Shown piece after piece: positions 836-62,012 of a stretch of DNA of 64,000 bases. Under the pieces are notes generated by a model. It was not told where the DNA came from. It ran no database searches and was given only the letters and a program-made list of their open reading frames with translations. Where the stretch lies: positions 40,201,818 to 40,265,817 of the forward strand of contig OY979716.1 in the NCBI GenBank assembly GCA_963855995.1. The letters are read 5' to 3'. The translations under genes and the position numbers were made by a program. This DNA comes from Muricea muricata (lineage: Eukaryota > Cnidaria > Anthozoa > Malacalcyonacea > Plexauridae). How positions within the stretch are numbered: position 1 is the first letter of the stretch; each line of letters begins with the position of its first letter.

Positions 836-868
836 CCGATGCTGTTCCCACTCCACCTTCAACTTACG
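836..868 (+). CDS. First visible exon: short Pro/Thr/Ser linker
   Basis: A 33-nt exon follows a pyrimidine-rich acceptor ending TTCAG at 835 and precedes a GTAAGA donor at 869. It reads [10 protein letters not shown], a low-complexity linker like the others in this gene. It begins and ends in phase 1, and its last base joins the first PA14 exon in frame. Upstream exons, including any signal peptide, must lie before the window. An isolated exon this short cannot be proven from sequence alone, but its phase fit and linker composition support it. Confidence 0.5.

Positions 869-62012: not shown

Follow-up and report, generated by a model that had tools for sequence, protein, structure and literature searches.

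The 64,000-nucleotide stretch of Muricea muricata DNA analysed here (the window; positions 40,201,818-40,265,817 on contig C1 of an assembly with 74 contigs and 453 Mb in total) probably carries part of a single gene of about 114 kb, which would encode a secreted protein of head-rod-head build, about 11,800 residues long. On this reading, the N-terminal heads, which comprise PA14, ILEI, PLAT, tectonin, laminin-G-like and six vWFA domains, are followed by a (Gly-Gly-Pro)n rod of 7,595 residues, and behind the rod stand, in order, a further vWFA domain, a PA14-like module, three tectonins and a terminal ShK domain with the stop codon. The best reading of its role is that of a secreted cross-linker of matrix or mucus, which resembles collagen VI in plan but has a rod of another kind and numerous lectin-type heads.

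Extent and Exon Model of the Gene

The exon chain was derived from a splice-model search, in which only in-frame chains with GT-AG introns were allowed, and was later corrected with the help of a paralog (copy B). All coordinates without a contig name are window positions, with negative values upstream of the window. When flanking sequence is included, the gene extends beyond both window edges, with one further PA14 domain upstream and ten further rod exons downstream, up to +90,219. Spliced together, the 81 exons read as a single open frame, 11,843 residues long (a length that counts the start candidate at -6419..-6332), whose sole stop lies at the very end, at +107,191, after the ShK domain and 43 kb past the window. 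All 80 introns are GT-AG, which is partly by construction, since the search imposes it. Symmetrical phase 1-1 exons, which are typical of shuffled extracellular modules, make up 49 of the 81 in the final model.

After correction, 49 exons fall inside 836-62012, against 48 in the first curated version, and the model thus agrees in count with an earlier note made from the letters of the window, which had proposed a single giant adhesive chain. Exons 16735-17102 and 17185-17212 of the first models were dropped for 16735-16971 and 17265-17312, the pair kept in copy B, and candidate exons inside rod introns were discarded as the product of a scoring bonus given to the whole rod region. Four short linker exons are weak (3858-3890, 97144-97221, 100307-100342 and 105098-105139).

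Pfam matches were judged against the curated gathering cut-off. The PA14, ILEI, PLAT, tectonin, LamG, vWFA and ShK domains all exceed it, with the exception of the PA14 behind the rod, and the domain list and order given by the earlier note were recovered in full above the cut-off by the Pfam search of the chain. Behind the rod, VWA scores 65 bits, one exon of each tectonin scores 128, 123 and 91 bits, and ShK scores 33 bits; within the window, the ILEI model covers two stretches with 135 bits. With regard to relatives, the nearest PDB chains of vWA1-2 are collagen VI alpha-3 (2.4e-85) and then PTMP1 (2.3e-22), the tectonin domain at 21706..22461 matches fish-egg lectin (7.7e-15), PLAT domain 2 matches the PLAT domains of lipoxygenase and polycystin-1, and PA14 is nearest in PDB to the yeast flocculin Flo5, weakly (0.0056). 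Glycans or proteins are frequent ligands of domains of the PA14, tectonin, ILEI and LamG types; PLAT domains bind lipids or proteins, and vWFA mediates protein contacts.

Paralogous Loci

Copy B, the paralog used for correction, is located 312 kb downstream on the same contig and repeats the head domains, the rod and the rear modules in the same order, with a ShK exon and stop at the rear. It differs in its larger number of PA14 units at the front and in a fourth tectonin behind the rod, where the window gene has three. In copy B an intron of 107 bp separates vWA6 from the rod and one of 116 bp the rod from vWA7, which leaves little space for a gene boundary on either side. At C1:40490126-40519069, copy B shows tandem PA14 pairs in near-identical units of about 4,074 bp, which may extend further upstream; this tandem array compares with two N-terminal PA14 domains in the window gene.

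A third rod was found on contig C6, where the hits (16,302,696-16,310,546) lie in a stop-free frame of 2,821 residues that also holds the following vWFA domain (16,310,547-16,311,035), and another vWFA domain is located just before it (16,301,980-16,302,501). In this neighbourhood there are also ILEI exons, a relative of the conserved module at 16735-16971 and, at C6:16243968-16294065, 25 tectonin hits, mostly full or near-full length and in tandem, beside the ILEI, vWFA and rod hits. The architecture of this locus is read from search hits, and it probably represents a third giant paralog whose tectonin head has been multiplied. Among the 100 rod matches listed (82 of 1,123 candidates scored), those with at least 70% identity are confined to these three loci. 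Matches outside them reach 30-51% identity, many with stops and some without, and other, divergent Gly/Pro-rich frames may exist elsewhere in the genome.

Composition and Register of the Rod

The whole rod consists of 14 exons (1,231, 525, 529, 528, 526, 522, 514, 513, 528, 522, 522, 676, 285 and 174 residues in order) and is central in the chain. The earlier note had described a tail of about 2,800 residues, which fits the 2,813 residues of the four exons in the window. The rod is longer than that and is not a tail: further heads follow it, and both the start and the end of the chain lie outside the window. In these four exons, Pro occupies its position in 847 of 935 complete triplets, and the other two positions are Gly in 718 and 724. 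Over the 2,511 triplets of the whole rod, the third position is Pro in 90.9%, and the other two are Gly in 76.7% and 78.7%, with nine register shifts in total within the 14 exons. A recurrent interruption motif, often at 36- or 60-residue spacing, was seen in the window part.

By its sequence the rod is not an ordinary Gly-X-Y collagen, because neither Gly position is strictly kept. The longest strict Gly-X-Y run comprises 28 triplets within an exon and 29 in the concatenation, and the share of the rod in such runs is 83% for at least 5 triplets, 40% for at least 10 and 4% for at least 20, with no run of 30. The term collagen-like, which the earlier note used for these exons, therefore calls for caution. 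None of the four window rod exons matches the Pfam Collagen model (PF01391) at E <=10; the GPP and collagen I controls match it, and a (GPG)22 control does not. Against PDB collagens, the best values are 4.9e-15 (rod exon 4) and 5.9e-08 (rod exon 1), which composition may drive. The strongest PDB match of the rod, 8zxl ('spindlefibril', 7.6e-67), was rejected as homology, being a collagen-like GAPGAPGSQGAPGLQ-type repeat with a large bias term. The rod does contain the Gly-Gly-X sequence motif of polyproline-II bundles.

Growth of the Rod and Selection

In best local alignments, rod exons 2, 4, 6, 8 and 10 are mutually 80-96% identical and exons 3, 5, 7, 9 and 11 mutually 77-84%, with 72-79% between the two alternating types. 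Exons 1, 12, 13 and 14 pair with the four rod exons of copy B at 77, 89, 81 and 88%, and exon 1 also has an 81% local match to the fourth rod exon of B. The rod measures 7,595 residues in the window gene and 1,880 in copy B, and the simplest reading is that an ancestral four-exon rod, as in B, received about five copies of a two-exon unit in the window gene. Rod exons 4 (60429-62012) and 6 (66890-68455) are about 95% identical in DNA, and among the 13 rod introns no pair shows a match longer than 60 bp at E 1e-5; because the exons are so alike while the introns cannot be aligned, this suggests that rod exon sequence was homogenised separately from the introns.

In each of the 13 pairs compared, the third codon position holds most of the differences between rod exons (56, 41 and 303 by codon position for exons 4 and 8; 45, 36 and 250 for exon 12 and the second rod exon of B), for which reason the rod appears to be kept as a protein pattern rather than as a DNA repeat. 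For the selection test, 66 non-rod exons (all but the start exon) were compared with copy B, and a comparison qualified at >=40 residues and >=65% identity. The ratio of nonsynonymous to synonymous substitution rates (dN/dS) is below 1 in all 35 qualifying exons, ranging from 0.09 to 0.57, and by this measure the head exons are under purifying selection. The other 31 are short linkers, poorly or wrongly paired, or lack a partner, and one linker of 12 residues has a dN/dS of 1.02. The overall value of 0.27 includes wrongly paired exons (the middle exon of ILEI-1, the first of PLAT-1, Tec-3 and several short linkers).

Alternative Explanations

The earlier note had named separate genes for the N-terminal domains, the vWFA array and the collagen-like exons as the finding that would overturn it. 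Two or three adjacent genes, namely one for the adhesive multidomain part, one for a Gly-Gly-Pro structural protein and one with vWFA and tectonins, would account for the 5,960 bp that separate vWA6 from the rod in the window copy, with a reverse-transcriptase fragment inside, and for a signal-peptide-like frame that leads into rod exon 2 (52436). However, this arrangement is highly improbable in view of the short introns around the copy B rod and of the single C6 frame that holds both rod and vWFA; in addition, no signal-peptide-like exon with a phase-1 donor was found in 40801-46760 with the rule used, and the phase 1-1 linkers carry related Pro/Gly sequence on both sides. The single chain with several binding-type heads is instead supported by the 81-exon open frame and the colinear paralog. 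Several points weigh against the reading as one secreted cross-linker. The evidence for one gene is genomic, and the start exon is ambiguous: a simple hydrophobicity rule gives several signal-peptide-like frames upstream with phase-1 donors, the best donors being at -6419..-6332 and -5972..-5909, and similar frames arise elsewhere in such DNA. The candidate at -6419..-6332 was not found in the copy B sequence fetched, which may stop short of the start of B. An assembly error in the repetitive rod is possible; a simple expansion in the assembly is less likely, because the introns between rod exons cannot be aligned. The PA14 behind the rod scores 22.7 bits, under the Pfam cut-off of 24, and the binding by head domains is predicted from family membership. 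The complete vWFA metal-site motif is DxSxS, T and D; in an alignment read by eye only one of the seven vWFA domains, vWA2, keeps it in full, and most of the vWFA domains probably work without metal for that reason. The genome-wide PA14 search missed the exon-split PA14 domains of this locus, so that whole-genome domain tallies are incomplete.

With the gene taken as one, the nature of the rod and of the heads can still be read otherwise. The rod might form an often interrupted collagen triple helix, which would make the protein a divergent chain of the collagen-VI type. The vWFA-rod-vWFA plan, the best PDB match of vWA1-2 and the 83% share in runs of at least five triplets all speak for this, as does the finding that 1,803 of 2,350 Pro (77%) precede Gly, the context used by collagen prolyl hydroxylase. 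This possibility has some weight and still falls short of an even chance, since the two Gly positions are filled in 77% and 79% with neither invariant, strict runs of at least 20 triplets hold so little of the rod, and the PDB matches to collagens may rest on composition; the Pfam Collagen model is silent on the window rod exons, but equally so on the pure (GPG)22 control. Pro-Gly-Gly is also a turn-forming sequence of the kind seen in elastin and silk, and the composition (52% Gly, 31% Pro; 4 Cys, 9 Phe, 2 Tyr and no Trp in 7,581 residues) would suit a disordered or elastic spacer of flagelliform-silk or elastin type, that is, an extensible mucus or mesoglea polymer. We consider this unlikely, because the triplet register is kept across whole exons of about 520 residues, which is more order than an entropic spring needs. 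Finally, a role as a lectin secreted for defence or as a mucus trap, in place of a structural linker, is suggested by the PA14, tectonin, ILEI and PLAT heads with their Flo5 and fish-egg lectin neighbours, and by the multiplication of PA14 units in copy B and of tectonins on C6. By our judgement a vWFA array with a rod of thousands of residues suits a structural load better, and the lectin role, which is compatible with the other readings, seems doubtful.

Features of the Window

The features of the window are collected in Table 1. In comparison with copy B, the exons of PA14 domain 2 are 86-92% identical in amino acids to its PA14 units, and those of ILEI domain 1 are kept at 96, 69 and 70%.

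Table 1. Exons and domains assigned within the window (window positions; B, copy B).
Positions	Strand	Feature (exons)	Evidence
836..2151	+	Linker exon 836-868 and PA14 domain 2 (1216-1424, 1699-1844, 1979-2151)	Pfam PA14 28 bits
3858..3890	+	Possible Pro-rich linker exon, weak	Phase 1-1, weak splice scores; good B partner not found
5077..6836	+	ILEI domain 1 (5077-5220, 5727-5817, 6665-6836)	Pfam ILEI
8380..8437	+	Linker exon between ILEI domains	Within 91-bp block 100% identical to B; phase 0 to 1
11100..11887	+	ILEI domain 2 (11100-11246, 11537-11627, 11722-11887)	Pfam ILEI
12490..14293	+	Linker 12490-12559 and PLAT domain 1 (12778-12925, 13977-14079, 14170-14293)	Pfam PLAT 62 bits; conserved in B
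16735..17312	+	Conserved module without Pfam match (16735-16971) and short exon 17265-17312	Conservation in B
17393..19830	+	PA14 domain 3 (17393-17568, 18486-18625, 19664-19830)	Pfam PA14 39 bits
20205..21581	+	Linker exons 20205-20237, 21531-21581	Phase 1-1; B partners 60, 44% over 10, 16 residues
21706..22461	+	Tectonin domain, one exon	Pfam Tectonin 139 bits; 92% identical in B
23684..25578	+	Linkers 23684-23758, 23878-23967 and laminin G-like domain (24440-24749, 25388-25578)	Pfam Laminin_G_3 51 bits
26132..27110	+	Pro-rich linker exons 26132-26233, 27072-27110	Phase 1-1; B partners 74, 73% over 27, 11 residues
27578..33789	+	vWFA domains 1-4 with Pro-rich linkers (27578-28117; 28798-29217 and 29338-29493; 30672-31214; 31928-32238 and 33567-33789)	Pfam VWA 222, 175 bits for the two pairs
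34335..36297	+	PLAT domain 2 (34335-34551, 35846-35945, 36165-36297)	Pfam PLAT 77 bits
36523..40800	+	vWFA domains 5, 6 and linker (36523-37074; 40090-40152; 40270-40800)	Pfam VWA 192 bits for the pair
46761..50453	+	Rod exon 1, (Gly-Gly-Pro)n, 1,231 residues	Best local alignment 77% to B rod exon 1
52524..54098	+	Rod exon 2, 525 residues	Exon model, rod alignments
55251..56837	+	Rod exon 3, 529 residues	Exon model, rod alignments
60429..62012	+	Rod exon 4, 528 residues	Exon model; rod continues to +90,219

The module at 16735-16971 encodes 79 residues that are 96% identical in copy B, with a dN/dS of 0.10, and it has no match in the Pfam search. Its relative at the C6 locus is 52% identical, weaker ones are located at C6:15.04 Mb, C1:99.8 Mb and C13:12.2 Mb, and its predicted fold is of low confidence (predicted local distance difference test score, pLDDT, 51). 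In the first PLAT intron, positions 12943-13506 are a 564-bp (TGTGG)n microsatellite, open in several frames, and mobile-element-like fragments with GIY-YIG-like and reverse-transcriptase-like frames, below the Pfam cut-offs, occur at 15727-16149 and 42402-42626. The Rfam search gave nothing reaching the gathering cut-offs. A GFP-family match with three internal stops, together with the ShK domain and features of a general kind, points weakly to a cnidarian source. Equal or near-equal PLAT hits were seen at C3:207-212 kb, C5:238-244 kb, C5 18.46 Mb, C6:148-153 kb, C10:13.69 Mb, C13:92-94 kb and C16:11.376-11.380 Mb, several of them seemingly near contig ends, which suggests a PLAT gene copied between chromosome ends.

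Proposed Mechanism and Significance

If the region is one gene for a head-rod-head protein, the product would be exported, and its rod would form an extended polyproline-II-type strand associated with other chains. With a rise of about 0.3 nm per residue for an extended strand, the rod, possibly micrometre-long, would measure roughly 2 micrometres, or more closely 2.2-2.4 micrometres, if fully extended. The heads at both ends would bind glycans or proteins, so that the protein could act as a long cross-linker of matrix, mesoglea, mucus or glue, and judging from the paralogs its reach would be tuned by gain or loss of two-exon rod units. We tentatively go one step further, to a proposal that may well prove wrong: a new class of extracellular filament, neither collagen nor silk, with a micrometre-long (Gly-Gly-Pro)n polyproline/polyglycine-II rod and unlike heads at its ends, whose length is set by two-exon units of about 1,050 residues and whose neighbouring paralogs differ about fourfold in reach.

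If the head-rod-head reading holds, a single chain would contain an exceptionally long rod with binding-type modules at both ends, in which Pro, and not Gly, is the near-constant residue, and in which rod length evolves by exon-pair copying while the heads are under purifying selection. Such a protein would offer a natural way to find out whether chains of Gly-Gly-Pro adopt triple helices, polyglycine-II bundles or springs, as well as a template for protein tethers of tunable length.

Comparison with Known Systems

Taken one by one, the heads have known counterparts, namely FAM3, CEMIP and POMGNT1 for ILEI, fish-egg lectin for tectonin, polycystin and lipoxygenase for PLAT and, weakly, Flo5 for PA14. 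In searches of open-licence PMC papers, no protein with this domain order was found, in agreement with the earlier note, which knew of none, nor was a chain that joins ILEI, tectonin, PA14 and PLAT with vWFA and the rod. Flagelliform spidroin and other Gly-Pro-Gly-Gly silks are very large secreted proteins with Gly/Pro-rich pentapeptide-type repeats and silk termini. The present chain shares the Gly/Pro-rich repeats, but its unit is a tripeptide and it bears adhesive heads.

The available part of PMC13243192 gives GGX as the motif of glycine-rich polyproline-II bundles, and a Gly-Gly-Pro rod is not described in the available parts of PMC12549020, PMC11959691, PMC6626399 and PMC13243192. These bundles (snow flea antifreeze protein, phage S16 gp38 and ALK) have the same Gly-Gly-X periodicity; they are made of short helices bundled together, whereas here Pro would take the place of X over thousands of residues of a single predicted rod.

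Mussel proximal thread matrix protein 1 (PTMP1) is likewise a secreted structural protein with vWFA domains. It has two of them and neither a Gly-Gly-Pro rod nor lectin-type heads, whereas the protein predicted here has seven, together with both.

Of the systems compared, collagen VI (alpha-3) is the closest in plan, having a vWFA array, an extended rod and further vWFA beyond it. In the window gene, vWFA domains likewise flank the rod, with six in front of it and one behind, and this is repeated in copy B and, by hits, on C6. The collagen VI helix comprises a few hundred, mostly strict Gly-X-Y residues; unlike it, the present rod runs to 7,595 Gly-Gly-Pro residues without an invariant Gly, and PA14, ILEI, PLAT, tectonin, LamG and ShK domains are added. 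Because it fails the strict Gly-X-Y rule and carries heads absent from collagen VI, we do not count the protein among the collagens; its mode of action may nevertheless resemble that of collagen VI.
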